A DNA stretch of 64,000 bases from Alteromonas sp. V450 (lineage in GTDB: Bacteria; Pseudomonadota; Gammaproteobacteria; Enterobacterales; Alteromonadaceae): assembly GCF_001885075.1 (NCBI RefSeq), contig NZ_MODU01000004.1:2170001-2234000 (forward strand). The letters are read 5' to 3'. Below, in pieces: positions 48,130 through 64,000 of the stretch. Position 1 is the first letter of the stretch. Every line of letters starts with the position of its first letter. The notes below the pieces were generated by a model. The model was not told the DNA's origin. It saw only the letters and a list, made by a program, of their open reading frames with translations, and searched no databases. The position numbers were made by a program, and so were the translations under genes.

Positions 48130-49002
48130 ATGTTTAATTCAATTGCTCTTGTTGGGGGCACTCATGGCAACGAGACCAGCGGTATTCAGCTGATTAACAA
48201 TTGGAAAAAACAAGGTATTCCTCAGCGATTCAATGCGCTTAATGTTGCACTAACTATTGCCAATGAGGCTGCTCTTGAGGCCAACGTCCGCTTTATTGAT
48301 GAAGATTTAAATCGTCAGTTTACTATGGATGCGTTGAATACCCCCCGGGCATCTAAAGAAGCGCTACTGGCGCAATCCATTAATAACAAATTTGGCCCTA
48401 AGGGCAACGCAAAAACTGATTTTGTTATTGATATCCATAACACAACAAGTGAGATGGGCGCTACGCTAATTATTCTCGAAGCAGATGAGTTTCACATACA
48501 GTTGGCACGTTTCGTAAAACAGCAAATGCCTGAAGCCAACATTTTAGTAGAAGACGAAAAGCCCTATCTAGAGCATGGTTACTTGTGTACTACCGGAAAA
48601 AAAGGCGTAATGATTGAAGTGGGCGGTCAGCCCCAAGGCGTGTTAAGAGAAGATGTATACCTACTAACGCAAACGATGGCGGAAGCCATTTTAGATTTCT
48701 GTATTGCATATAATAATCAGCAAATAGAAACAGATGCCCTGCCCGCATGTGAAGCGTTTCGCCTTGGTAAAAATATCGGCTTTCCTTTAGATGAAAAGGG
48801 TAAGCGTATCGCTATGGTCCATCATGCATTGCAAGACAATGACTTTAAGCCATTGCTGCCTGGCTCTCCCATGTTTAGAACTTTCGACGGGAAAGATATT
48901 CTTTGGCAGGGTGAGAAAGAAACGTATCCTCACTTCATTAATGAAGCAGCCTATTTCAAACTAGACGTAGCATTTGCCACGTCTGAACGCATCATGCTTT
49001 AA
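48130..49002 (+). CDS. Aspartoacylase-like zinc carboxypeptidase
   Basis: 290-residue protein of the AspA/AstE (M14) family. Zinc ligands His and Glu lie in LVGGTHGNETSG at residues 7-18, with the third His in VIDIHNTTSEMGATL near residue 106; substrate Arg-Asn in EDLNRQF near residue 60. Likely deacylates an N-acyl aspartate or similar N-acyl amino acid in the cytoplasm. ATG 48130 follows AAGGA. It is a single unit; the 144 bases upstream separate it from the OYE gene. Confidence 0.87.
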   Translation: MFNSIALVGGTHGNETSGIQLINNWKKQGIPQRFNALNVALTIANEAALEANVRFIDEDLNRQFTMDALNTPRASKEALLAQSINNKFGPKGNAKTDFVIDIHNTTSEMGATLIILEADEFHIQLARFVKQQMPEANILVEDEKPYLEHGYLCTTGKKGVMIEVGGQPQGVLREDVYLLTQTMAEAILDFCIAYNNQQIETDALPACEAFRLGKNIGFPLDEKGKRIAMVHHALQDNDFKPLLPGSPMFRTFDGKDILWQGEKETYPHFINEAAYFKLDVAFATSERIML

Positions 49003-49256: not shown

Positions 49257-49279
49257 ACATTACAAGAAAGGTGACACCT

Positions 49280-50431
49280 TTGGAATTAAGTTTTGTTATT
49301 CCATGTTTAAATGAAGAAAAAACGCTGGCCACGTGCATTAGGAAAGCTAAAAAATTTATCGAGCGTGAAGGGATAATCGCTGAAATAATCATTGCTGATA
49401 ATGGTTCAACAGACGCTTCAAAAGAAATTGCGCTTGCAGAGGGGGCCAAAGTTGTAGACGTTAACCGAAAAGGCTATGGCGCAGCAATCTCTGGCGGTAT
49501 TAAAGCCGCTCAGGGAAAATATGTAATCATGGGCGATGCTGATGATAGTTATGATTTTGAAAATTTAGATGCATTTTTAAAAGAGCTTCGATCCGGCGCC
49601 GAATTAGTTATGGGAAATAGGTTCGCGGGAGGAATAGGACGCAAAGCAATGCCGTTCTTGCATCGCTATCTAGGCAACCCAGTACTGAGTTTTCTTGGTA
49701 GATTGTTTTTTTCGTCTTCAATTAGAGATTTTCACTGTGGCCTAAGAGGGTTTAACCGTAATTCAATCATCAAACTCAATTTGACGTGTCCGGGCATGGA
49801 GTTTGCGAGTGAAATGGTAGTAAAAGCATCTTTACAAGGGCTAAAAATAAACGAAGTCCCGACAACACTTAAGAAGGATGGAAGGGACAGACCTCCCCAT
49901 TTGAATACATGGAGAGACGGTTGGCGCCATCTAAAGTTTTTATTGATTTATAGCCCCAAATGGCTGTTTTTTTATCCCGGCGTTTTGTTATTACTCATCG
50001 GCATTGCTGGCATTAGTACACTCTCGTTAGGGGGAATTTCGATAGGTAATTTGAATTTAGACTACCATACCATGCTTTATTCTTCGGCATTCGCAGTAAG
50101 CGGTGTCCAGATGATCTCGTTTGCTTTTATTAGTAAAACGATGGGAAAAGTGATGAATCTATGGAAGTCGAGTGACGCGATGTTGAAAGCAGTAGACATT
50201 TTTATTCGAGAAAAAGCGCTTTTCTTTTTTTTCGCCTTGCTGCTGTCAGGCATATGCTTAGGTATTACGACTATAGGCAAATGGAGCGACATAGACTATG
50301 GCCCGATTACCGACTTTAGTATCTTACGTTTATCTATAATATCGATAACCCTCATTATTGTCGCAGGTCAAGGAGTTCTTTCTTGGTTTTTTCTAAATTC
50401 TCTTCTTATGTTTCATGAGAAAGAAAAGTGA
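49280..50431 (+). CDS. Family 2 glycosyltransferase with C-terminal membrane helices (polyprenyl-phosphate sugar synthase type)
   Basis: 383 residues. The N-terminal GT-A domain shows SFVIPCLNEEKTL, the donor-binding IIADNGSTD, GYGAAISGGI and metal-binding MGDADDSYDFENL, then RDFHCGLRGFNR typical of dolichol/undecaprenyl-phosphate sugar synthases. Four membrane helices follow from about residue 230 (LFFYPGVLLLLIGIAGI onward). It would transfer a sugar from a nucleotide to a lipid carrier. I prefer TTG 49280 with AAAGGTG 6 bases upstream; GTG 49271 is possible. Convergent with the methyltransferase (6 bases apart). Confidence 0.9.
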   Translation: MELSFVIPCLNEEKTLATCIRKAKKFIEREGIIAEIIIADNGSTDASKEIALAEGAKVVDVNRKGYGAAISGGIKAAQGKYVIMGDADDSYDFENLDAFLKELRSGAELVMGNRFAGGIGRKAMPFLHRYLGNPVLSFLGRLFFSSSIRDFHCGLRGFNRNSIIKLNLTCPGMEFASEMVVKASLQGLKINEVPTTLKKDGRDRPPHLNTWRDGWRHLKFLLIYSPKWLFFYPGVLLLLIGIAGISTLSLGGISIGNLNLDYHTMLYSSAFAVSGVQMISFAFISKTMGKVMNLWKSSDAMLKAVDIFIREKALFFFFALLLSGICLGITTIGKWSDIDYGPITDFSILRLSIISITLIIVAGQGVLSWFFLNSLLMFHEKEK

Positions 50432-50437
50432 ACCACA

Positions 50438-51136
50438 TCAATCAGATGAATTGAACTTAGGGGCGTAGGCAATGATGTTGCTGGGCCAACCGCAAAGGGA
50501 AAGAGTAAGCACATTAGGTTCTGATTGAGTCGATTTCTGCATTATCCGCTTTACGTCCTTAGGAGCAAGTAGGTTGAGGTTTTCTTCTTTAGAAAAGAAA
50601 GAATAGGAAGTCCGACTCAAAATAGAACGGAAAACTGGCTTTGGTAGCCAATGCAAGACGGGCAATACGGTATGAAACTCTATTGGAAACCACCGATTTG
50701 GAGTAGTGATAAATACCCCCTTTCTGGCAACTCTATATAATTCTTCAATAAACCTGTGCTGGTTGTCTTCACTACCTACATGTTCAAGTACTGCTGAAGA
50801 ATGAACGTAATCAAATGAATTGTCTTCAAAGGGTAAGTCGAGACCATTTGCTTGAATAAACTTCATACCTTCATACACAGTTTCTAAAAACGAGGCATCA
50901 TCAAGCCCCACGGCAGTAATCTTACTTTTGTGCGGATACCAGGCTTCCAGATAATTTGATGCCTCATAGGTTTGATCGCCAGTAACCCCTACGTCAAGAA
51001 TAGACTCAGTACGTGAAACACATGTCAATTCTATGAACAAGTCATACATTTTTCTTCGCTGGTACGCTGCTACTCTTACAGGTAAGCTTTTTGGTGCTGC
51101 AACATTGTATTGTTCATTTACTTTTTTTGGAGACAC
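50438..51136 (-). CDS. Class I SAM-dependent methyltransferase
   Basis: 232 residues. Motif I region ESILDVGVTGDQTYE (an atypical Gly pattern), motif II-like ITAVGLDDASF, and DNSFDYVHSSAVLEHVGSE, the usual post-II/acceptor block of methyltransferase type 11. A short hydrophobic patch near residue 155 (FHTVLPVLHWLPK) is common in glycan-linked versions. Start at GTG 51136 after GGTGGAG, which is very close to the start; uncertain. Surrounded by glycosyltransferase-type genes, it may methylate a sugar or a polyprenyl-linked glycan. Confidence 0.82.
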   Translation of the reverse strand: MSPKKVNEQYNVAAPKSLPVRVAAYQRRKMYDLFIELTCVSRTESILDVGVTGDQTYEASNYLEAWYPHKSKITAVGLDDASFLETVYEGMKFIQANGLDLPFEDNSFDYVHSSAVLEHVGSEDNQHRFIEELYRVARKGVFITTPNRWFPIEFHTVLPVLHWLPKPVFRSILSRTSYSFFSKEENLNLLAPKDVKRIMQKSTQSEPNVLTLSLCGWPSNIIAYAPKFNSSD

Positions 51137-51316
51137 TCCACCAACCTTCTTTAAAAAATATTGTGAGGCCGCAAACTATATCAAAGATGTTGGTTTATTC
51201 TAGCGCTTAAAATTAGGGCATCCTATAAGTAAGATTAAGTGATTGAATTCTATTCCTTGATGGCGAACTTAAGTCGGTTTAGTATCCGAGTACTTCAGTT
51301 TATTCATATCGAATGA

Positions 51317-51733
51317 TTGTTTATTGTGAATTCCGACTCTTTTTTATCAAAATTTTCTAGGTTTTGCGTTAGCGGAACTGCCATGGCGATGGCCTGTGCC
51401 ATTTTAGTAGGTATAGCCTCTCAGAGTATTAGCAATAACGTCGTATTTTTTTTTGTTTGTATTCTAATGCACTTCTTTTTAAGTGTTATTAACTACCTTT
51501 TACAATCCTGTTGGGTATTTAGGGGCCAGGGAAGCTTTCTTATTTATATTCTTTACAGCATTATCTGTGCTGGAGTCTTCGGCTTGGTGAATACATTGGT
51601 TCTATATTTTTTTAATAGTAGAAACCTAACCGTCGTGACTTTTGCTTATATCCTCTCAGTGGGTGTAGTCGTGCCTTTATCGTATTTTTTAAATAGTCGC
51701 CTTTTCAAAAATAAAATTGAGGCCAAATCGTAG
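51317..51733 (+). CDS. GtrA-family membrane protein (putative lipid-linked sugar flippase)
   Basis: 138 residues with four membrane helices packed closely: LSKFSRFCVSGTAMAMACAIL, NVVFFFVCILMHFFLSVINYLL (split), LIYILYSIICAGVFGLVNTLVL and the last at FAYILSVGVVVPLSYFLNSRLF. The RFCVSGT start and LNSRLFK end fit the GtrA family, which flips undecaprenyl-phosphate sugars. Starts at a TTG (or GTG 51326); no clear ribosome binding site. It is 18 bases before the next gene. Confidence 0.8.
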   Translation: MFIVNSDSFLSKFSRFCVSGTAMAMACAILVGIASQSISNNVVFFFVCILMHFFLSVINYLLQSCWVFRGQGSFLIYILYSIICAGVFGLVNTLVLYFFNSRNLTVVTFAYILSVGVVVPLSYFLNSRLFKNKIEAKS

Positions 51734-51751
51734 TTTTTAAAAGGATGTAGT

Positions 51752-53662
51752 ATGTTTTTTTACGGAAAAAACAAAACGAAATTTTTTTTGGCAATTTTGC
51801 CAATCATATGTTGCGTGATATGGCAATTTATTGCTGGAAAGGATCTAAATTGGGATGCTAATAATTATCACCTTTATGCAGGGTTTTCAGCAATAAATGA
51901 TCGTTTCTCACAAGATTTTTTTGCTGCTGGCCCACAAAGCTACCTAAACCCTTATGCGTATACTCTTTTCTATCTTCTCGTTACTTACTCTTCAAATGCA
52001 TTGTTGGTGGGCTTGTTACTTGCAATCAGCCAAAGTGCTGTAATCTATTTAACATGGGGAATTGCAAAGTCTGTGCTGAAGCAGACCGCTCCTTCAACGA
52101 GTTTTTTAATTCTCACTACAATACTGAGCGTGTCAACTACCGTAGTCTGGCACCAAATAGGTTCATCTTTTATTGATATCTATGTAACAATATTTGTGTT
52201 GGCGGGTGTTTATTCTCTTTTAAAGTATGATGTTTCTCCTACTGCTACACGTGCGTTTCTATCGGCTTTCGTTTTAGGCTTTGCTGTAGGAATTAAACTT
52301 ACATCAGGGATGTTCGCATTGGCCGGCGCCTGTTGCGCCCTCTACTTGATGTGTATTAAACACAAAAAGTATAAACACTTTATATGGTTTTCTGTTGCTG
52401 GTGTTGTTGGTGCACTTCTTGTAGAAGGTTGGTGGGCTTACAGGGTATTTCAAGAAACCGGAAACCCGTTTTTTCCTTTTTTTAATAGTGTATTCTGCTC
52501 ACCGTATACTATTTGTGAGTCAATTAAACACCACAGGTTTATTCCATCCTCTTTGTCAGAAGCCCTGGTTTTGCCCTTTGAAATGCTTCTTCCTTCGCCA
52601 TGGCTTTACATTGAACTATTATCACCTGACGCTCGATTCGCCTTTTTGTTTATCGCTATTCCAATATTTGTATATTTGCAAAGACGTAGCAAGGACGTTG
52701 CGACCCCATTTAAAGTAGTAATTGGTTTCTGGTTAATTTGTTACTTTATATGGCTGTACGCAACTGCAAACGGTCGCTATGGTATGCCACTGTTTATTTT
52801 GGTAGGAATAATCATAGGCTATATCATCGCTAAATCATTAAACGCAAAACGCGCTCAGATATATATGCTCTTATTAGTCACATTTCAGGCGTTTCTTTTG
52901 GTATTTGGCGGAGGTTTGAGGTGGAATTCACAAGAATGGACTTCTCCTTATTTTGAATATCAACTGCCTGAAAAATTAACGAATTCTCCGGCTTTATATA
53001 TATCCGCAACACGGCAGTCTAATAGTTTCTTGATCCCACAATATCACCCTGATTCATCGTTTATAAACGTGTCAGGTCAGATGCCCTTAGATGGAAAAAG
53101 TGCGTTGGGTAAAATTGAACAACTATCAAAACTTCATAACGGTAGAGTTCGTTTCTTTGCCGAAGTAGAAGTTCTGGAAGGCAAGCAAATAGCCGATGTA
53201 AATTGGCCCCAAAATTTTAATAGTAAGATTGAGCGGTTTGGTTGGAAAATTGTTAAGGACCAATGTGAATACGTTGAAAACAACGTTAACAAAGGGACAA
53301 TTGGGCTACGCTATATTGCGGACTGCCCTATTGAAGAAGACGCAGCGTTAGCAACTCGCTTTCAACGTTCTGTCGTAGAGATTGATACAATATTTAGTAA
53401 TATAGAAAAGCATTGCCCACAACTATTCAGTCCTTCAACAGGGGTAACAGAAAAATTCGGCGGCGCTTGGTCACGCGAATATATTGGTACCGATACGTCC
53501 ATTTTTATTACAGATATCAGTGTCATTAAAGTAACCAGTAATGAAGTGGAGGCTACGGTATTAGGCACTAGAGAAGAATGGTCGAAAAACCCTGCTTCTG
53601 CGGCTAAAGGCTGTTTCACAAACGGTCAGAAACGGTCAAAGTCGATGACATTTGACCTATAA
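51752..53662 (+). CDS. Polytopic membrane glycosyltransferase (GT-C-like)
   Basis: 636 residues with a SD AAAGGATG. About ten to eleven membrane helices fill residues 10-390, then a periplasmic C-terminal domain of about 240 residues. The first extracytoplasmic loop carries DLNWDANNYHLYAGF, with the acidic residue expected in a GT-C enzyme. It would use the lipid-linked sugar made by the GT2 and flipped by GtrA. The late part has Cys (DQCEYVE, IADCPIEED, KHCPQLF, KGCFTNG) that could form disulfides. Low GC compared with the flanks. Family assignment is by architecture only. Confidence 0.75.
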   Translation: MFFYGKNKTKFFLAILPIICCVIWQFIAGKDLNWDANNYHLYAGFSAINDRFSQDFFAAGPQSYLNPYAYTLFYLLVTYSSNALLVGLLLAISQSAVIYLTWGIAKSVLKQTAPSTSFLILTTILSVSTTVVWHQIGSSFIDIYVTIFVLAGVYSLLKYDVSPTATRAFLSAFVLGFAVGIKLTSGMFALAGACCALYLMCIKHKKYKHFIWFSVAGVVGALLVEGWWAYRVFQETGNPFFPFFNSVFCSPYTICESIKHHRFIPSSLSEALVLPFEMLLPSPWLYIELLSPDARFAFLFIAIPIFVYLQRRSKDVATPFKVVIGFWLICYFIWLYATANGRYGMPLFILVGIIIGYIIAKSLNAKRAQIYMLLLVTFQAFLLVFGGGLRWNSQEWTSPYFEYQLPEKLTNSPALYISATRQSNSFLIPQYHPDSSFINVSGQMPLDGKSALGKIEQLSKLHNGRVRFFAEVEVLEGKQIADVNWPQNFNSKIERFGWKIVKDQCEYVENNVNKGTIGLRYIADCPIEEDAALATRFQRSVVEIDTIFSNIEKHCPQLFSPSTGVTEKFGGAWSREYIGTDTSIFITDISVIKVTSNEVEATVLGTREEWSKNPASAAKGCFTNGQKRSKSMTFDL

Positions 53663-53873: not shown

Positions 53874-55163
53874 TTAAAAGAGTTCTATCTTAGGCTCTCG
53901 TGCCTCTTCAAACTCACTTTTTTCTTCAGGTGATGATTCATTGATATCAAAATGGATTTTACGCTGATCTTCCATTACATATTTTTCAAACATTTCTTTG
54001 GTGCTTAAGTTAAACGACTCATCAAAATGCTCGCGGTTATTGATGTAAGACGAAAACTGTCCGAACAAACTAACGATCGCGTCTTGCTCTAGTTTCACAT
54101 GCTCAGTACGCTGGCGAATAATGTCTTGGAACTGAATTTTCGCGATGGCACCGCTTACTTTTACCGCAACGTCGGTGGCGCTTTGCGAGAAGCACGCCAG
54201 CATTTTGGGATTGAGTTCTTCAAGCACGCGATAGTGTGTCGTTATGTTTTCTAACGACTCAGAAAAACCCGTCAACAATTCACATGTGTCATTTGCGCGC
54301 GTAGAGCTCAGCATTTTCTCACCTTGCAAATGCGCAGCGTCGAGCGCTGATTTTATGCCCGACTCTATTTTTTCGGCCGCTTCTGAAGACTGTGATGATA
54401 GGATACGAACCTGTTCGGCCACTACCGCAAACCCTCGGCCATATTCGCCTGCGCGGGCAGCTTCAATTGCTGCATTAAGCGCTAATAAATTAGTTTGTGA
54501 AGCAATATTTTTTACAAGCTCTGTCAGTTCTTTCAGGTTTTCAACTTCACGCATGACCCCTTGAATTGCCTCAGTGTCTGCAATTTGCTGCTCTCTTTGC
54601 GTACTGATCATCGCTTTTATACTGGATAAGCGCTCAGCTGCTTTAGTGAACTCGTCAGCACTTTTTTCCTTACAACTAAGAGCATTTTTCTGTCCTAATT
54701 CAACGTTGTCTATACTGTCTTGTATGCTGCTTTCAATTTCGTACAGTGCCTTCATCAGCTCCATAGAAGCATCTTCAGTTATTGCACTTATGCCATCCAT
54801 CTGCCCTTTTAATATGGCGACATAATCATTAACTTGAGAGTGAGTTTCACTTAATTGTGTTGAGGTTTCCCGCAAATAACTTTCTTGCTCGTGTAGTTTG
54901 GCTGCATAAATGCGATTTTGTCTACTTGCATACCAAGGCATAAAGCAAAACATGCTAACAATAGTGATTATCACTCCCGCATGCACGCCTATTACCGACG
55001 AGGACGTTGTCAACGACCCTCCAATTCCAAGTGATGCCACAATAACTAATCCGCCCCACAGTAAAAGCGAATCCTGCATACTACCTGTCTTGTCCTTAAG
55101 CACTTTTAATTTCTCAGCGAGCACTGTCTCGTAATACTGCTTTGCTTTTTCAAGTACTTTCAT
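53874..55163 (-). CDS. Methyl-accepting chemotaxis-type receptor without periplasmic domain
   Basis: 429 residues, last gene of the operon. Two membrane helices close together (about residues 32-50 and 60-80) leave almost no periplasmic loop, so sensing must be cytoplasmic, in the membrane or through partners. The signalling tip [16 protein letters not shown] and [12 protein letters not shown] is canonical for CheA/CheW docking. After the bundle comes [15 protein letters not shown], recalling the Q-D-x-x-x-Q region of CheZ-type helices, and an acidic tail ([17 protein letters not shown]). Whether it is methylated is not certain, as only some sites look right. Confidence 0.9.
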
Positions 55164-55172
55164 GTTTTTACC

Positions 55173-55541
55173 TTATGCAGTTGGTACCAACTGCTTTACT
55201 ACACCTAATAATTGCTCTGGTTCGACGGGTTTGACGAGCCAGCCTGTAGCACCAGCAGATTTGGCCTCCTCACGACGGCTTTGCTGAGACTCAGTGGTTA
55301 ACATCAACATGGGGGTAAATCTAAATTTAGACTGCTGTTTTAATGTTTTTATTAGCTCTATACCATTCATACCTGGCATATTTAAGTCAGTAATAATCAA
55401 CTTGGGCGATATGGATTCAAGCGCAACCATAGCTGCTTCTGCACTTTCTGACTTTGTTACCGTATAGCCTGCCCGCTTTAATAGCATTTCCATGCTCATC
55501 AACATCGTTGCTGAATCATCTACTAAGTGTATTGCGCTCAT
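55173..55541 (-). CDS. CheY-like single-domain response regulator
   Basis: 122 residues, a lone receiver: acidic pair Asp8/Asp9, phospho-acceptor Asp52 in TDLNMPG, Thr in MLTTES near residue 82 and Lys104 in LVKPVEP. No output domain, so it would act by protein contact. Lies between the ParA gene (4-base ATGA-type overlap) and the terminal receptor gene (9 bases). Confidence 0.93.
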   Translation of the reverse strand: MSAIHLVDDSATMLMSMEMLLKRAGYTVTKSESAEAAMVALESISPKLIITDLNMPGMNGIELIKTLKQQSKFRFTPMLMLTTESQQSRREEAKSAGATGWLVKPVEPEQLLGVVKQLVPTA

Positions 55542-56293
55542 TGCATTACCTCTTGTTTATAGCCGATTAACTGTTTACACAACTCAGTATAGTCTCGAGC
55601 TCCTCGACTGTGAGGCGCATAGGCAGTTACCGGCTTATTTTCTGCGAATGCCTCGGCTAAAGTTATGTTTTTATGTATTGGACTAAGCACTTTGTTTCGA
55701 CCATAGCGGCCGTACCAGTTACTCAATTCTTGGCGATGTAACTTTAAGTTTTGCTCTACCATTACCGGTAAAATGGTTAGGTTTGTCGCTCTAAACTTGC
55801 GCTCTGCCATGGCCTTCCGACACGCATTTAACAGCTTTTGAACACCGTCGCTTGCAAGTGGCATGGGCGTAGCAGGTATAATGATATCTGTGGCGGCGGA
55901 CAGTGCTGCCATTAGCTGTGAGCTTAACGTTGGCGGCGTGTCGATAATAACGATATCGAAATGCGTTGATACTTCGTCGCTATCACACCAAAGGCGAATA
56001 GCGTCTAACGCAATGTCGTCGTTAGTGTTTGCGCGTGTAGTGTCAACACTAGTGGCATAAATTTTTTCACTACATTTAACGATTGAGGTGAAAAAGTCTT
56101 TGAGTGGCATGGTCTTTATGGTGCTTTGTGGCTCAGTTCCAAGCGCCGTCAAGCCTTGCATAACGTGGCCTTGATTATCCAAATCAAGTACTAAAACACG
56201 GTTGCCATGTTGTGCAAAGCCAAAAGCGAGATTGACCACTGTGGTAGTCTTTGCTGTCCCGCCTTTGCGATTTGCAACCGTGATCACTCTCAT
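55538..56293 (-). CDS. ParA/Soj-family ATPase
   Basis: 251-residue ParA-type P-loop ATPase. Deviant Walker A NRKGGTAKTTT with signature Lys at residue 10, Walker A' region LVLDLDNQGHVMQGL, Walker B IVIIDTPPTL. No partner ParB gene and no N-terminal HTH, so this is not a plasmid partition gene; ParA homologues of this size inside chemotaxis clusters position receptor arrays (PpfA in Rhodobacter, ParC in Vibrio). Overlaps both neighbours, the 85-residue gene upstream and CheY downstream. Confidence 0.92.
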   Translation of the reverse strand: MRVITVANRKGGTAKTTTVVNLAFGFAQHGNRVLVLDLDNQGHVMQGLTALGTEPQSTIKTMPLKDFFTSIVKCSEKIYATSVDTTRANTNDDIALDAIRLWCDSDEVSTHFDIVIIDTPPTLSSQLMAALSAATDIIIPATPMPLASDGVQKLLNACRKAMAERKFRATNLTILPVMVEQNLKLHRQELSNWYGRYGRNKVLSPIHKNITLAEAFAENKPVTAYAPHSRGARDYTELCKQLIGYKQEVMQ

Positions 56294-56547
56294 TCACACC
56301 ACACTTTATTGTTGTCTGATTGAAGCATCTCTACTATCCAATATAGTTCTGATGATTCAGGCTGTACACTAACCTTTGGTCGTAAGCACAAAAGCACTTG
56401 GAAAACCGCGGTATGTGCGGTTTTTAACGTTTTTAGATTAAGCTGCCGTGAGGCGTCCTCTGTCAGCCAACTAAACAAGGTTTCAGCCTCTTCAATTTCA
56501 CAATGTCCGGCAAGCACTGCTACTTTTTTCTTGAACGTTACAGGCAT
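56290..56547 (-). CDS. Small unknown protein between cheA and parA (STAS-like guess)
   Basis: 85 residues, ATG at 56547 inside the end of cheA (10-base overlap), and its stop overlaps the parA start. Distinctive blocks are AGHCEIEEAETLFSWL and LKTAHTAVFQVLLCLRP. No membrane segment. The strand-helix order suggests a very short STAS-like fold, but I do not recognise the family. Tight coupling to cheA and parA makes it a probable component of this system. Confidence 0.8.
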   Translation of the reverse strand: MPVTFKKKVAVLAGHCEIEEAETLFSWLTEDASRQLNLKTLKTAHTAVFQVLLCLRPKVSVQPESSELYWIVEMLQSDNNKVWCE

Positions 56548-59081
56548 GTGGATATGACCTCCTGCACATTGATAATGAGTAATACCCTTCCATCTCCAAG
56601 TAATGCTGTACCTGAGAAGTGGGAATAGCCAGCAAGGACGCCTTCAAGGGGTTTTTGAATAACGTCAATACCTTCATGAAACTTATCAATAATAAGCCCA
56701 AACTCGCCCTGCGGCGTTGACACAACTAATACCGAGTGTTCCTCTTTACTGTCGTCAGGTTCGAACCCCAGCGCATCTCGCAAATTACAAAGCGGTATTA
56801 ACTTATCCCGTATCACCAACACGTTTTCATTGCGTATTCGCTGAATGTCCTGCGTAGGAACTTTCACGGTTTCTACTACCGCGTCCATACTTACGCCAAA
56901 CATCTGATCGTTTACTTCAAACATCATGACGCGATTTACTGACATTGTCTGAGGAAGAAGCAGCTTGAACGTAGAGCCCACGCCAACCTCACTCTGCATT
57001 TCTATAGTACCGCCTGCCTGACTTACCATGGTTTTTACTGCATCCATGCCCACTCCACGACCGGACAAATCCGACACTTGTTCACTGGTGGAAAACCCTG
57101 CGGCGAAAATCAGCTGAAGTGCCTCATTATCGTCTATGCTCTCAAGCTGAGACTCTGTTATTACGCCTTTCTGAAAAGCGAGAAGCTTAATTTTATGGGG
57201 GTCAATGCCCTTGCCATCGTCACGTATTTCGATAATGACGCTGTCATCAAGGGGGGTAGCAATCAAGTCAATACGCCCAGTTTCAGGCTTGCCCGCCTCT
57301 ATTCTGTCTTCGGGCGATTCGATACCATGGTCAATACTATTGCGCAGTAAATGGATGAGGGGCTCTGATAACGATTCAATTAAGTTTTTATCAAACTCGG
57401 TGTCTTCACCTTGCATACACAGTTCAATTTTCTTATCGAGCTTTCTCGATAAATCTCTAACCAACCTTGGATAACGCTGAAAAACATGTGAAACCGGCAC
57501 CATTCGTATCTGCAGTACCGCGCTTTGTAATGACTCGGTTAAACGGTTAACAATTGAAAAGTGCGCTTTTATCTGCTTGCTTAGTTTCTTGCTTCCACCT
57601 TCTTCTTCAGCTTGCTTAGCCAAGTAAGGAAGTGAGTTTTTTGCAACCGTTAGTTCGCCAACTATGTCCATTAAATAATCAATTTTAGTTTGGTCAACCT
57701 TCAGCATTTTGACCGCTTGTCGCTCAGCTTTAGCCGGTTGAGATGCATCGTCTTCTGCTGTTTGCGTCTCTGATTCGTTTGTTGCGTTGGTGGTTTCAAC
57801 AACATCCCGTATTTCAGGTATGTCATTTTGCACGTCTTCTAACGCCGCGTTAATTGCACTTATTAGTTCTGCTTCATTGCTGAATGTTTGCTTTAATACA
57901 TTGCCAACAAGCATGGATATTGAGGGAAACATAAACTCTGCGTTATAGCCCTCAGAGCTTATCAGTGCTAATTGTTGCGTTAATAACTCTTTTTCATGTG
58001 GTAACAAACCTTCTTTACTCAGTTCCGCGGCTAAACTGTCTGATTCACCCGCAAGGTCGTCTGACTCGTCAGCTGTTATAACTTCATCCAGAAAAGTAAG
58101 ATCGTTATCAGATGATAAAAATGACAACACCGCTCTTATTGGCATAGCGTGTGTTTGCGACGCCAGCAAAAGCCCAGCGGTCGACTGCAACATATTGTTA
58201 TCACCAGCCTCACGAGCGGTTTTTAAAGCGTCATTTAACGCTTCATCATTCAGCTGCGCTACGCTGTCGAGGATCTTGTCTTTACATCGATATTTAAGTG
58301 CCTGCTGAGTAAGCTTATGTAGTTTATACTGGCCTTCATAATAGGCCATATGTGTCACGACAGCGTCTTCGCTTGCTTCGCCAAGGGCAGTTATTTTTAA
58401 GACGCATTGATAAACATCTGCATCAGCGGCCATCGCGGGCGCGTTGATTTCAAAAGCGCGTAAACCCGGCAGCGCCAGTGCGACATTCACTGGGTCCTCA
58501 CCGCGAAAAAAGCAACCTTCATCAGGAGTATATTCAATTACATACAGATCCGATGACGCGCTTTTAGACAATAACGCAATATCCGCATTGTCATCGAACG
58601 CATCAAGCGCAGTAGCTACTGAATCAACGATTTCGTTGGTGCTGCTATCAGCCTGAGCGGCAGGTGTTTGTTCAGTGGTATTGGCACCAGCTTGAGACGG
58701 GTCAATGAAGGCTCGAAGCTGCGCACTTAAATCGGTAGAGATGGGTTGCCATTCAGCGAGACTTTGAGTTCCGTTTTCCAGCTCATCAAACCACATAGAT
58801 ATCTGATCTAATGCTTCAAGAAGCAGGTCACCAATCTCGTCGTTGTAATCAACCTCTTTCGCTCGCACGCTGTCTAATAAATCTTCCGCAGCATGAGCCA
58901 AACGCGTCAATGGTTTTATATCGAATAAGTCTGACGAACCTTTGATCGTGTGTAAATCTCTGAAGATTTTGTCCACTTTGTCCGACGATGGGCCTGAAGC
59001 TTGAATCTCAATAAGCTCTTGACTTGCAGACTCTAGGTTCTCGCGAGACTCACCGATAAAGACGTCGAGTAGTTCACTCAT
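56538..59081 (-). CDS. cheA: Chemotaxis-type histidine kinase CheA
   Basis: 847 residues. Hpt domain at the N-terminus with phospho-His44 in DLHTIKGSSDLF. A long middle part (about 140-460) includes a ferredoxin-like block (IEYTPDEGCFFRGEDPVNVAL) where P2 would be and a second poorly defined helical stretch. Dimerisation P3 starts at VDQTKIDYLMDIVGELTVAK, then the kinase with N box HLLRNSIDHG, G1 RDDGKGID and G2 GRGVGMDAVK, and a CheW-like C-terminal domain. It has a single Hpt and no receiver. Its start overlaps the end of cheY. Confidence 0.96.
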   Translation of the reverse strand: MSELLDVFIGESRENLESASQELIEIQASGPSSDKVDKIFRDLHTIKGSSDLFDIKPLTRLAHAAEDLLDSVRAKEVDYNDEIGDLLLEALDQISMWFDELENGTQSLAEWQPISTDLSAQLRAFIDPSQAGANTTEQTPAAQADSSTNEIVDSVATALDAFDDNADIALLSKSASSDLYVIEYTPDEGCFFRGEDPVNVALALPGLRAFEINAPAMAADADVYQCVLKITALGEASEDAVVTHMAYYEGQYKLHKLTQQALKYRCKDKILDSVAQLNDEALNDALKTAREAGDNNMLQSTAGLLLASQTHAMPIRAVLSFLSSDNDLTFLDEVITADESDDLAGESDSLAAELSKEGLLPHEKELLTQQLALISSEGYNAEFMFPSISMLVGNVLKQTFSNEAELISAINAALEDVQNDIPEIRDVVETTNATNESETQTAEDDASQPAKAERQAVKMLKVDQTKIDYLMDIVGELTVAKNSLPYLAKQAEEEGGSKKLSKQIKAHFSIVNRLTESLQSAVLQIRMVPVSHVFQRYPRLVRDLSRKLDKKIELCMQGEDTEFDKNLIESLSEPLIHLLRNSIDHGIESPEDRIEAGKPETGRIDLIATPLDDSVIIEIRDDGKGIDPHKIKLLAFQKGVITESQLESIDDNEALQLIFAAGFSTSEQVSDLSGRGVGMDAVKTMVSQAGGTIEMQSEVGVGSTFKLLLPQTMSVNRVMMFEVNDQMFGVSMDAVVETVKVPTQDIQRIRNENVLVIRDKLIPLCNLRDALGFEPDDSKEEHSVLVVSTPQGEFGLIIDKFHEGIDVIQKPLEGVLAGYSHFSGTALLGDGRVLLIINVQEVISTCL

Positions 59082-59449
59082 TAGCTACCTCCCAAAACCG
59101 CACTGACCACAGACTTAAGTGCATCTGCGTCAACAGGCTTAGTCATGTAGAAGTTTGCACCACATTGATAGGCCCGCTGCGCGTCCTGGGTTGCAGACTC
59201 TGTGCTTATCATGATAATGGGAACAGCGCGCAGTAGCTCGTTTTGCCTGATTTCTTTACAGAGTCGGTAACCGTCCATTTTAGGCATATTTACATCGACC
59301 AAAAACAAATCGATAGGAGTGCCGATGGCTTTCTCCAGCGCTTCCACACCATTTTCAGCTTCTTCCACGACACGGTCGTCAGAAGATACCAACATTTTAT
59401 GAAACATTCTGACTGTAGACGCGTCGTCGACTATCATTACTGTTTTCAT
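59081..59449 (-). CDS. cheY: CheY-like single-domain response regulator
   Basis: 122 residues, lone receiver: Asp8/Asp9, phospho-Asp52 in LVDVNMPKMDG, Thr83 in MISTES, Lys104 in MTKPVDA. Start at ATG 59449; a longer frame from 59494 adds 15 residues lying in cheR. GGAGGGG inside the end of cheR acts as ribosome binding site, and only one base separates the cheR stop from this ATG. Overlaps cheA by one base (TAATG type). Confidence 0.94.
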   Translation of the reverse strand: MKTVMIVDDASTVRMFHKMLVSSDDRVVEEAENGVEALEKAIGTPIDLFLVDVNMPKMDGYRLCKEIRQNELLRAVPIIMISTESATQDAQRAYQCGANFYMTKPVDADALKSVVSAVLGGS

Positions 59450-59450
59450 G

Positions 59451-60305
59451 TTACGCCCCTCCTGCAAGTGGCTTTTGGTAGGCAATAACATCACCGAACT
59501 TACGCACTTTAAACATAGACGATATCCGGCTCATCGACTCACTATGCCCTAGAAAGATGTATCCACCTGGTTTCATCGCATCAAACAATACATGTGCTGC
59601 TTTTTTGCGCGACTCATCGTCAAAATAAATGAGCAAGTTTCGGCAGAATACCAAGTCAAAGTGTCGAAACCCCTTCATGTTTGCACCTGATAGAATGTTG
59701 GCTAGTGAAAATGAAACCGACTCTCGTATATCGTCACATAGCTGAAACTGACCGTTGGTCTCTATGAAATACTTTTTCACCAACGCGGTTGGAATGTTCT
59801 GCACCGAGCGCTTTGAATAAAGCCCTTTTTTAGCAGACGCTAGAACATTGCTGTCAATATCTGAAGACGCTATCTCTACATCTCGATGCGCTAGCCCTTT
59901 CCAGTTTTCGATAAGATGAATAGCAATCGAGTAAGGCTCCTCGCCCGTGCTTGAAGGCACAGACCAAATTCGTAGGTCCTCCCCCGGTGCACGATAGCTA
60001 TCGAGTTCATCCATGATATAACGTGTCATTGCGTCAAATTGGTATTCTTCGCGGAAGAAGTAGGTTTCATTCACTGTCATCGCGTTGACGAGGTTTTGGA
60101 ACTCTTCCCCCGACGCTTGGAACCGCATGTATGTGAAATAGCTTTTGAAGTTTGTGTGCCCCGTAGCCTTCATCCGCTCGTGTAATCGTTTATCAACGAA
60201 ATAACGCTTTGAGTCTTCAAAATGGATCCCCGTTTTTCGGTAGAACATCGACCGAAAGCGCTCGAAATCAGCCGCGGCGATTTTTTCCAACGTTGCTGTA
60301 GTCAT
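59451..60305 (-). CDS. cheR: Chemotaxis protein methyltransferase CheR
   Basis: 284-residue SAM-dependent glutamate methyltransferase of receptors. N-terminal helical domain (FERFRSMFYRKTGIHFEDSK), then VNETYFFREEYQF, the SAM-binding WSVPSSTGEEPYSIAI and DLVFCRNLLIYFDDESR. No TPR tail and no C-terminal pentapeptide-binding sign beyond the core. The start overlaps the end of the HEAT gene (TAATG). Confidence 0.96.
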   Translation of the reverse strand: MTTATLEKIAAADFERFRSMFYRKTGIHFEDSKRYFVDKRLHERMKATGHTNFKSYFTYMRFQASGEEFQNLVNAMTVNETYFFREEYQFDAMTRYIMDELDSYRAPGEDLRIWSVPSSTGEEPYSIAIHLIENWKGLAHRDVEIASSDIDSNVLASAKKGLYSKRSVQNIPTALVKKYFIETNGQFQLCDDIRESVSFSLANILSGANMKGFRHFDLVFCRNLLIYFDDESRKKAAHVLFDAMKPGGYIFLGHSESMSRISSMFKVRKFGDVIAYQKPLAGGA

Positions 60306-60940
60306 TATGCGCTCCCTAATTGATTTCGAATTAGGCTTATGACAAAGGCAATGTAGGCATGGTTGGGAAAGCGGCTCTCAACAGTTTGCAAAATGTCATA
60401 GGTAGAACTATCTGACACCTCTGCAAGCTTGTCTAAAGCTGTACCAACAACGTTCTCATTGTCATCATTGAGTGCAATGTGATGCAACCAATTCAACGCA
60501 TCGGGATGTGCCACTGCGCCAATAATGTCAACACAAAAAATACGCGTATCAGGGTCATCGTCTTGCATCAGTTTATGCACGTTGTGTGCGAACAAGTCAG
60601 GGTTTTGCTGCATAAGTTCTATTGCACCGTTACGCAACTGCACTTGTTCACTTTTCAACATGCCTATCAGTTGAGATGCATCGGCATCCGTCATATTGTG
60701 TTCAAGCGCACTAAATAATGCTTCGATAACTGTTGGGTCGTTTTCCGCTGGGAGTCGCTCTAAAAAAACCTTGTGCGCGTTCTCTTCACCACTTAAGTCA
60801 CGTACGGCCCAGCGTCTTACACTGCTGTCTGGGGAGGCTAGATCGGCTACTAACTGCTCTGGCGTTCGTTCAGCACTGCGCTTTTCTTCTTGTTGAATTA
60901 CTGTGTCGTCACTGGCATTTGATTTCTTTTTTAAACCCAT
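60305..60940 (-). CDS. HEAT-repeat protein within che operon
   Basis: 211 residues, cytoplasmic. After a basic start (GLKKKSNASDDTV) come helical pairs spaced about 30 residues, as HEAT repeats: SPDSSVRRWAVRDLSG, DPTVIEALFSALEHN, SEQVQLRNGAIELMQ, DPDTRIFCVDIIGAVA, NENVVGTALDKLAE. Such solenoids bind partners. Start is ATG 60940 with AGGAG 8 bases upstream; the frame opening at 60964 begins at a TTG inside cheB and is unlikely. Lies between cheB and cheR, both receptor-modifying enzymes, and may scaffold them. Confidence 0.88.
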   Translation of the reverse strand: MGLKKKSNASDDTVIQQEEKRSAERTPEQLVADLASPDSSVRRWAVRDLSGEENAHKVFLERLPAENDPTVIEALFSALEHNMTDADASQLIGMLKSEQVQLRNGAIELMQQNPDLFAHNVHKLMQDDDPDTRIFCVDIIGAVAHPDALNWLHHIALNDDNENVVGTALDKLAEVSDSSTYDILQTVESRFPNHAYIAFVISLIRNQLGSA

Positions 60941-60954
60941 AACACTTGCTCCTG

Positions 60955-61992
60955 TTATCGACAAAGTGCATTCAACTTTGACACTATTTTAGGACTGTCT
61001 AATACATGACTGGCGCAGCCGGCCTCAATTAGTTCTTTTGGCATACCAAATACAACAGATGTTGCTTCACTCTCAGCAATCGTTGTAGCACCTCCTTTGT
61101 ATGCTTTGCTCATTGCAGCTACGCCATCGCTGCCCATTCCAGTTAGCTGTACACACAGCATGGCGAGTGGTTCATAGCAATTCAGTGCACTATCTACCAT
61201 ACGATCGACACTGGGATGCCACAAAAAACTTGGGCTCGCTGGTACAGGTCGAACGTGAATATCAGCACCCGTTTTTGCAAAAGCTAAGTCAGCATCGCCC
61301 TTCGCCAAGTAGATTTTGCCCGCTTCAAGAACCATTCTTGAGTCAACTTCGACAACATTTAGTGGGCTTAATCCATCTAATCGCTTAGCCAATGCTTGGG
61401 TAAACGAAGCAGGCATATGCTGTGAAATAACGATGGGTGCTGGAAATGTGGGTGAAATATTGGTTACCAAGTGTTCAAGCTTCCGCGGTCCCCCGGTCGA
61501 AACCCCTATCATGACAATTTCAAAAGGCGTGCTTTTATTATTTCTCACCACACGCTGCTTCACGACGGGGGGCGGTTTGATAGTGGGCCGCTGTGCCCTT
61601 CCCGTCTTTGCTAACGCATTTATTTTGTTGATTAACGGCGTTTCTATATCAGAAATGTCTCGGCTTACAGTGCCCCCTGTTTTCAGTACAAAGTCGCTGG
61701 CGCCTAATGCTAATGCTTCAAGAGTAATAGCCGCACCTTTTTGCGTTAGCGAAGAAACCATAATAGTAGGACATGGATACAATTTTCTTAATAAAGCCAA
61801 ACAGGTCATACCGTCCATCACAGGCATGTTAATATCAAGCGTGATACAGTCGGGTTTAAATTCGACCGCTTTAGAAAGCGCTTCTTCACCGTTTCTTGCA
61901 ACCTGGACAGTGAACCCCTCTCTTTCAAACAATTGAGTAAAGAGTTTGCGCATTAGCGCAGAGTCATCCACTGCAAGCACTTTTACCGACAT
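60955..61992 (-). CDS. cheB: Protein-glutamate methylesterase CheB
   Basis: 345 residues: receiver domain (Asp9/Asp10, phospho-Asp53 in TLDINMPVMDG) joined to a methylesterase. The catalytic triad is visible as Ser in GVSTGGPRK, His in SQHMPASF and Asp in TGMGSDGVA. I start at ATG 61992 after GGGAG at 5 bases; ATG 62004 adds four residues. It follows the triple CheW gene by 41 bases. Removes methyl groups (or deamidates) from receptors. Confidence 0.95.
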   Translation of the reverse strand: MSVKVLAVDDSALMRKLFTQLFEREGFTVQVARNGEEALSKAVEFKPDCITLDINMPVMDGMTCLALLRKLYPCPTIMVSSLTQKGAAITLEALALGASDFVLKTGGTVSRDISDIETPLINKINALAKTGRAQRPTIKPPPVVKQRVVRNNKSTPFEIVMIGVSTGGPRKLEHLVTNISPTFPAPIVISQHMPASFTQALAKRLDGLSPLNVVEVDSRMVLEAGKIYLAKGDADLAFAKTGADIHVRPVPASPSFLWHPSVDRMVDSALNCYEPLAMLCVQLTGMGSDGVAAMSKAYKGGATTIAESEATSVVFGMPKELIEAGCASHVLDSPKIVSKLNALCR

Positions 61993-62033
61993 AGCATCTC
62001 CCATTAATCAACCAAGTAAGCTAGCCTACTTAA

Positions 62034-63581
62034 CTAGAACTGCGTTTGTGCTTGAGCCACCGCGTTGTCATTTAGCAAAACATTGGGCTCTATAATTTGA
62101 ATAATGCGCTTTTCGTCGTTTAATTTTATTAATCGACTTAAAAATTCAGACTGCATTTCTGACAACGAAGGCGCTGTTTCAATGGTTTGTTTAACCACAG
62201 TTTTTACTTCTGCAACGCCATCAACAATAAAGCCTGTGCGCTGCTTATCTTTCGTTAGCACAACAATTCGCTGTCGTTCAGATGATTCACTGCTTGGTAT
62301 GCCAAGGCGACATCTTAAGTCGATAACGGGCAGCACCGTGCCGCGCAGATTTACAATCCCTTTTAAATAATCAGGGGTACTTGGAATGCTCTCTAACTTT
62401 TCTGGTACACGGGTTATTTCTTGGGTGTCATCAATGCTTACCCCATATTCCTGACCATTAATCCAGAAAATGACGTACTGCTCGCAATCATCTTCGTTGA
62501 TGGCGGCATCGTTATTCTCGTTCATCTGCGACTCCTGCTTTATGTCTTCATCTATTGAACTCAATGCTGTCATGAGCGCTCGACTGTAGACATTAGTTAG
62601 ATTTATTATCGACACAAGACGCTTTCCACCGTCGCTTCTATATACCGCTTCGAGCAGCCCTGACTCCGCGCCGTCGTTGCAAACCGATGGCACAGCTTCA
62701 AGTTCACTTTCAGAGATTGAAACAACGTTACTCACTTTAGCGACCACAAATCCAACGCTGCCGAACTCGCTGTTTTGCGCTATGACAATACGAGAGGCTT
62801 CGTTAATATCGGTATGGACCATGCCAATGCAGTTTGCCAAATCGACAATGGGTATAATGCGGCCTCGTAAATTCACTAGTCCTAACACTGATGGTGCACT
62901 TTCTGGAAGCTGAGAAATTTCGCTGGGTACACGAACAATTTCTTCCACGTCCTGTAGGTGAAATGCGAACTCTTGATCTTCAAGAGAGAAGCAAACCAGT
63001 TGCTGTAGATTATGGTCATCTGATTCAGTAATCTCGTCGTCGCTGTCAATATGATGCATACCCGACAGCTGCATCGTATTACCATCCTGCTTTGTTACGG
63101 CTTGTGCTCTGGCTAAAGACGATACATCGAGTATTTGTTCTACGGGTTGGTCATCTTGCTTGATAATGCCCTGCATGTATTCATAGGCGATAGATTCGGT
63201 CATCGACTTTTTATCAATTACCGTTTCATTAGGCACTCCAAATACTTTCAGCACCCTGTCAACCATAAAGCCGACGCTACCGAGTTCCGATTCTACAACT
63301 ACCACGCGAGTCACATCGGTAATTCGTGAGCTGACACCCAGCAAAATCATGCTTAGATCATAGACAGGTAAAACATTGCCTCTTAAGTTGGCTAATCCAA
63401 TCATTTGAGCAGGTCCGAGTGGCACCGATACCACAGTAGGGACACGTATGATTTCGCCTACAGAATGCATCGGAAATGTGAATCGCTCCTCGTTTACAAG
63501 AAAGGAAACGAATTGCTGTTCACCGTCACCCGTGTCGTCCTGAAGATTTTCAGCACTTTCTATATTTGAAACATCAGTCAT
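62034..63581 (-). CDS. Triple-domain CheW-like coupling protein
   Basis: 515 residues holding three CheW domains. The first covers about residues 20-165 (FVSFLVNEERFTFPM, IGLANLRGNVLPVYDL), the second 190-335 (LVCFSLEDQEFAFHL, LGLVNLRGRIIPIVDL), the third 365-500 (YVIFWINGQEYGVSI, KGIVNLRGTVLPVIDL). Each keeps the NLRG turn that contacts receptor and kinase. Linkers are acidic (SDDEITESDD; NENNDAAINEDD). It could link several receptors or kinases at once, building an unusual array. Lies between the partial receptor and cheB. Confidence 0.94.
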   Translation of the reverse strand: MTDVSNIESAENLQDDTGDGEQQFVSFLVNEERFTFPMHSVGEIIRVPTVVSVPLGPAQMIGLANLRGNVLPVYDLSMILLGVSSRITDVTRVVVVESELGSVGFMVDRVLKVFGVPNETVIDKKSMTESIAYEYMQGIIKQDDQPVEQILDVSSLARAQAVTKQDGNTMQLSGMHHIDSDDEITESDDHNLQQLVCFSLEDQEFAFHLQDVEEIVRVPSEISQLPESAPSVLGLVNLRGRIIPIVDLANCIGMVHTDINEASRIVIAQNSEFGSVGFVVAKVSNVVSISESELEAVPSVCNDGAESGLLEAVYRSDGGKRLVSIINLTNVYSRALMTALSSIDEDIKQESQMNENNDAAINEDDCEQYVIFWINGQEYGVSIDDTQEITRVPEKLESIPSTPDYLKGIVNLRGTVLPVIDLRCRLGIPSSESSERQRIVVLTKDKQRTGFIVDGVAEVKTVVKQTIETAPSLSEMQSEFLSRLIKLNDEKRIIQIIEPNVLLNDNAVAQAQTQF

Positions 63582-63610: not shown

Positions 63611-64000
63611 TTAACCGTTTTGCATTTCGTCTGCCACTGATGCAATTTCTTCAATCGATTTTGCAAGGATCTCCATGCCTTTGCTCTGTTGCTCAGCAGC
63701 ATTAAGCGCTTGCTGGCAGTTGCTGCTTGCCTGCTCGTTGGCGGCTGCAATCTGCTCAAGGCCTTTCTGCGCTTGTGTAACACCTGCGGCAATTTCCTCA
63801 CCCCGGTCTTTCATGGCTTGGTTGTACTCCACCACCTCAGAGATATCGGCTGCTATCTTTTCAACGTCTTTGGTTGTTTGTACCGCCTTCATCACTTCTC
63901 GTGATGCGCTCTCGGCTACGTTGGTAAGGTCAGTTTTAACACTCACTGTTTGATCTTGAATGGCTTTGATGAGGTCTTTTATTTGTTCCACATTTTCAGC
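63611..64000 (-). CDS. Methyl-accepting chemotaxis-type receptor, C-terminal part (cut by right edge)
   Basis: 129 residues visible; the frame runs in from beyond 64000 with AENVEQIKDLIKAIQDQ. It is a long coiled-coil heptad pattern rich in Ala, Glu, Gln and Lys (SASREVMKAVQTTKDVEKIAADI split; QKGLEQIAAANEQASSNCQQ split) ending SIEEIASVADEMQNG. This is the receptor bundle downstream of the signalling tip. The GTG at 63989-63991 is not its start. First gene of the visible operon, 29 bases before the triple CheW gene. Confidence 0.85.
   Translation of the reverse strand, partial: AENVEQIKDLIKAIQDQTVSVKTDLTNVAESASREVMKAVQTTKDVEKIAADISEVVEYNQAMKDRGEEIAAGVTQAQKGLEQIAAANEQASSNCQQALNAAEQQSKGMEILAKSIEEIASVADEMQNG

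Follow-up and report, generated by a model that had tools for sequence, protein, structure and literature searches.

The question raised by the gene at 62034..63581 (−) of the window, that is, the whole stretch of 64,000 nucleotides of Alteromonas sp. V450 DNA that was analyzed, is what a chain with three CheW domains is for, and it leads to the further question of how a three-domain scaffold fits into a six-membered ring. The gene starts with ATG and encodes 515 amino acids, which the initial annotation had read as three CheW domains, each with an NLRG turn, joined by acidic linkers. PF01584 CheW is the sole family found in the protein by a Pfam scan, in three stretches (whole-protein E value, 1.5e-88), namely D1 (residues 23-159, 63105..63515 (−), 97.1 bits), D2 (residues 194-332, 62586..63002 (−), 98.2 bits) and D3 (residues 368-505, 62067..62480 (−), 119.6 bits). 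Taken singly, each of them scores above the curated cut-off (23.5 bits), so a chance match is not at issue. The NLRG turn is present in all three domains of this protein, the scan gives no Hpt, dimerization or ATPase domain, and no transmembrane-like segment appears in the hydropathy profile. In NCBIfam no model dedicated to such a protein came up; the single-CheW model was the sole match, at 142.9 bits against its cut-off of 260. That most CheW proteins are single-domain, as the annotation had assumed, holds in the organism's own genome, where 13 CheW domains lie in 11 reading frames and ten of these frames carry one domain, more than one being found only in the frame described here.

The neighboring genes indicate the kind of system to which this protein belongs. 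Directly upstream lies a DosM-like receptor of 635 amino acids with two signaling domains (two PF00015 stretches), whose 3' end (63611..64000 (−)) is in the window and whose whole gene (L044:12611-14518 (−)) starts beyond it; its best 19-residue hydropathy is 1.16 and none exceeds 1.6, which is too low for a membrane helix. On the 3' side, the genes recognized by Pfam follow on the same strand in the order of a CheB methylesterase with a receiver (60955..62004 (−)), a HEAT-repeat protein that is a conserved member of the cassette (60305..60964 (−)), a CheR methyltransferase (59451..60305 (−)), a CheY-type receiver (59081..59494 (−)), a CheA kinase with Hpt, H-kinase_dim, HATPase and CheW/P5 domains (56538..59081 (−)), a ParA-like ATPase (55538..56293 (−)), a second CheY-type receiver (55173..55541 (−)) and a single-tip methyl-accepting chemotaxis protein (MCP) with hydrophobic N-terminal segments by hydropathy, a membrane MCP (53874..55163 (−)). 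A three-CheW adaptor, a cytoplasmic receptor with two signaling domains, and CheA, CheB, CheR and CheY in one cluster match the features of the F9 class of chemosensory systems. DosM, with two signaling domains, and CheW3, with three concatenated CheW domains, have been described as a pair unique to this class, full clusters of which were reported from 64 of 2781 species and partial ones from eight (PMC9321776). In Vibrio cholerae cluster I/F9 they correspond to VC1403 (DosM) and VC1402, a "concatenated triple CheW", and the F9 array is described as cytoplasmic and double-layered, with DosM spanning both layers, CheW3 located in both baseplates and CheA not essential for array formation (PMC7534058). 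VC1402 resembles the Alteromonas protein in its three concatenated CheW domains and in having DosM and CheA in its gene set (PMC7534058, PMC9321776), although it comes from a different organism and the likeness is one of architecture and gene content drawn from the published description. The gene at 62034..63581 thus almost certainly encodes the CheW3 of an Alteromonas chemosensory system of class F9, the scaffold of its baseplate, the class being assigned here by gene content and architecture and not by the published F9 CheA profile.

The architecture of CheW3, the F9 class and its genomic setting are already published, and a triple CheW (3XCheW) is listed among previously identified architectures (PMC10653840). 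An unusual crosslinker peculiar to Alteromonas sp. V450 was considered and rejected in view of the DosM neighbor and the F9 literature. The suggestion in the initial annotation that tandem CheW domains shape array geometry finds a counterpart in the placing of V. cholerae CheW3 in the two baseplates of a double-layered array (PMC7534058), but the view of the protein as unusual or unexplained is not supported, since publications already use the names 3XCheW and CheW3. The other suggestions of the annotation, that the tandem domains crosslink receptor trimers in a new way or bind different receptors, are conceivable. What is added here is a complete and clean F9 cassette placed in a marine Alteromonas, with all three CheW domains constrained yet distinct, together with the conservation of each domain, its grouping by position, the linker lengths, a near-constant HEAT-repeat gene and the insertion site in Alteromonas.

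CheW3 was found in 15 of 59 genomes of the genus Alteromonas and in 4 of 394 genomes at the order level. Among 229 genomes drawn from the whole class, six (its own included) matched over most of its length; in one of these, locus L019, the match begins at query residue 56 and the first domain is degraded. Named genomes were scanned with an alignment of nine sequences (A1), and the counts that follow refer to the best 80 of at least 541 confirmed candidates, a set biased to close relatives and to full-length CheW3. Three CheW domains are in one open reading frame in 79 of these 80 loci, which is the domain count in homologues that had been proposed as a check; the 80th, L085, from a Myxococcales metagenome assembly, also has three domains, and its frame is broken by an in-frame TAG (L085:5754-5756) inside D2 at a place where homologues carry an aromatic residue, which is either a sequencing error or the mark of a decayed gene. 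A two-tip receptor occurs in 75 of the 80 loci, the available sequence ending upstream in the other five, and it is immediately adjacent in 70 of the 72 with enough upstream DNA, the two exceptions (L085 and L092) both having split open reading frames. CheB comes next after CheW3 in 78 of 79 loci. The closest named relative among the matches listed is Alteromonas marina, with 97% identity over the best segment. In a Burkholderiales genome (L121), two DosM-CheW3-CheB sets lie next to each other in divergent orientation.

In the same best 80 of at least 541 candidates, the HEAT-repeat gene is present in 73 of the 74 cassettes with enough sequence, and ParA in 24 of the 57 long cassettes. The F9 cluster of V. 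cholerae presumably also includes HEAT-repeat and ParA-like genes. Because the HEAT-repeat gene is nearly constant in F9 cassettes, the data suggest that its product is an overlooked F9 component; a literature search for it as a part of F9 gave nothing among the matches listed, the one paper there being about archaeal chemotaxis proteins.

The three domains were compared in an alignment (A2) of 60 out of 89 homologues, the 89 being the window protein, eight more and the best 80 of at least 541 candidates, and L019, with its degraded first domain, being excluded. Residues were mapped on the numbering of Escherichia coli CheW, in which E38, G57 and R62 are the receptor/kinase hallmark residues. 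Residues E38, I39, G57, R62 and G99 are each found in 60 of 60 homologues in D1, D2 and D3 alike, R62 corresponding to R67 (D1), R239 (D2) and R413 (D3) in the Alteromonas protein. The receptor groove of Thermotoga maritima CheW has been described with L14, V27, I30 and V33 (PMC5706961), whose equivalents by alignment are V25/M38/V41/I44 in D1, V196/L209/V212/I215 in D2 and V370/I383/T386/I389 in D3. These are hydrophobic in all three domains with the sole exception of T386, where 53 of 60 homologues have valine, and the groove positions are hydrophobic in nearly all of the 60 homologues. Of the interface-2 residues described for E. coli CheW, R117 and F122 (PMC5181776), the first has mostly acidic equivalents in each domain of the 60 homologues and the second mostly aliphatic ones. 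Sequence and structure prediction show that the residues defining the fold and the interfaces of CheW are preserved in the CheW3 domains, which by homology would bind receptor tips and P5.

The domains are not, however, conserved to the same extent. D3 is the best conserved, with 25 invariant positions out of 138 in the 60 homologues against 17 of 137 in D1 and 13 of 139 in D2. D1 and D3 keep NLRG across the homologues, while in D2 only the arginine is constant (60/60), asparagine being found in 9 of 60 and glycine in 17 of 60; therefore the NLRG turn annotated in every domain is true of the Alteromonas protein and fails for D2 of most homologues, and D2 may differ from an ordinary adaptor between receptor and kinase. 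The higher conservation and top Pfam score of D3, with the loss of N and G in D2, could be taken to mean that CheW3 acts as a plain CheW in which D3, the domain most like canonical CheW, alone is functional, with D1 and D2 left as relics or serving as spacers. This is very improbable, because the five residues named above are constant in every domain, the groove stays hydrophobic in nearly all homologues, D1 and D2 possess invariant positions of their own, and relics are not expected to stay fixed across Pseudomonadota, Actinomycetota, Acidobacteriota and Thermodesulfobacteriota, the taxa to which CheW3 belongs in the tree described below. The initial annotation had reserved the reading as a plain CheW for the case that two domains lack the receptor/kinase interfaces, and the hallmark residues were instead found in each domain. 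For the same reason, the candidate explanation of two decayed domains was rejected.

D1, D2 and D3 share 26-33% identity with one another, and each is 26-29% identical to E. coli CheW. A tree of 91 rows was built from 20 of the 60 homologues for each domain, 18 of 34 single-CheW segments (one of these "single" rows being D1 of the split L085 frame) and 13 of 67 P5 segments. It groups the domains by their position in the chain, five changes being required for the five labels (minimum, 4; mean after shuffling, 54.9), with one change for D3 (support 95) and two each for D1 and D2, in a tree of few columns, several long branches, those of Alteromonas CheW3 among them, and weak deeper forks. This grouping makes it probable that the triple array was assembled once and its domains then kept distinct; together with the hallmark residues kept in each domain, it indicates three working but probably non-interchangeable units. 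Each unit might be specialized for a partner of its own, such as a particular receptor, the P5 of CheA or the HEAT-repeat protein, instead of holding equivalent ring positions, a possible but rather doubtful explanation. It would account for the grouping by position, the low mutual identity and the distinct turn of D2; however, the three domains share the residues of the receptor groove and the arginine, and long divergence in fixed positions could yield the same groups without different partners.

The linkers between the domains are acidic, as had been annotated. Linker 1 (residues 163-190, 63012..63095 (−)) contains 29% D + E versus 4% K + R and linker 2 (residues 338-364, 62490..62570 (−)) 30% versus 4%, and D + E exceeds K + R in 53 of 60 homologues for linker 1 and in 60 of 60 for linker 2. 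Their lengths in the 60 homologues are 22-31 and 20-38 residues, respectively, with a median of 26 for both. AlphaFold2 with the 60-sequence alignment gave three confidently folded units and low-confidence linkers (mean pLDDT, 80.4; pTM, 0.56), the pLDDT being below 50 at residues 164-189 in linker 1 and at residues 351-360 in linker 2, where a helix extends to residue 354. The solved structures closest to the model are CheW chains, and CheA chains rank below them. The linkers are thus predicted to be probably flexible, and at 20-38 residues their reach alone does not forbid contacts between rings. Linked domains crosslinking different rings or the two layers, in place of completing one ring, nevertheless appear unlikely: the two-tipped DosM has already been described as joining the two layers (PMC7534058), and no measured feature favors inter-ring contacts.

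By analogy with V. cholerae, D1, D2 and D3 would take up CheW sites in the baseplate that CheA-P5 and CheW form in a cytoplasmic array of two layers, and their covalent linkage would raise the local concentration and set the order of the scaffold units, so that CheW3 most likely supplies the CheW positions of F9 baseplates three at a time and in a fixed order. With less certainty, one CheW3 chain may fill the three CheW positions of a mixed ring of three P5 and three CheW or, alternatively, two chains may form a CheW-only ring of six. We tentatively propose, at somewhat less than an even chance, that CheW3 acts as a one-chain ring closer, in which D1 to D3, in fixed order, sit at all three CheW sites of one P5/CheW ring or make up one half of a CheW-only ring. 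In favor of this, three divides both types of ring, the domains are conserved yet distinct, and the two linkers have equal median lengths. If it is true, F9 baseplates would have non-equivalent, ordered scaffold positions and would depart from the three-fold symmetry that CheW rings are assumed to have.

Other known proteins resemble CheW3 in part. The single-domain CheW of E. coli and T. maritima shares the fold and the hallmark residues of each CheW3 domain and has one domain per chain, versus three in CheW3. CheA of class F5 and of some F1 systems has two or three CheW domains, that is, more than one per chain as in CheW3 (PMC10542144), but these are kinases, while CheW3 is without Hpt, dimerization and ATPase domains. 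CheV and ParP likewise use a CheW-type domain as an array adaptor (PMC7534058, PMC5706961); they pair it with a receiver or a ParC-binding part, whereas all three domains of CheW3 are CheW.

Within the genus Alteromonas, the cassette has a single site, next to mutT (window 48130 to L044:15273), the distance from CheW3 to mutT being about 2.3-2.4 kb in 14 of 15 genomes and about 4.1 kb in one (G621). In the 19 F9-less loci examined, from among 44 F9-less genomes, a homologue of the open reading frame at 48130-49002 follows mutT instead in every case. This pattern suggests either a single gain followed by losses or repeated exchange at one site. At the G621 locus (L151), a transposase-like open reading frame, recognized by eye, lies between mutT and DosM and may explain the longer distance. 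Furthermore, genes that by eye are glycosyltransferase-like, methyltransferase-like and of membrane proteins occur at 49271-53662 of the window, separating the cassette from the conserved gene that lies at 48130, and they fall inside the stretch that is absent from the F9-less relatives.
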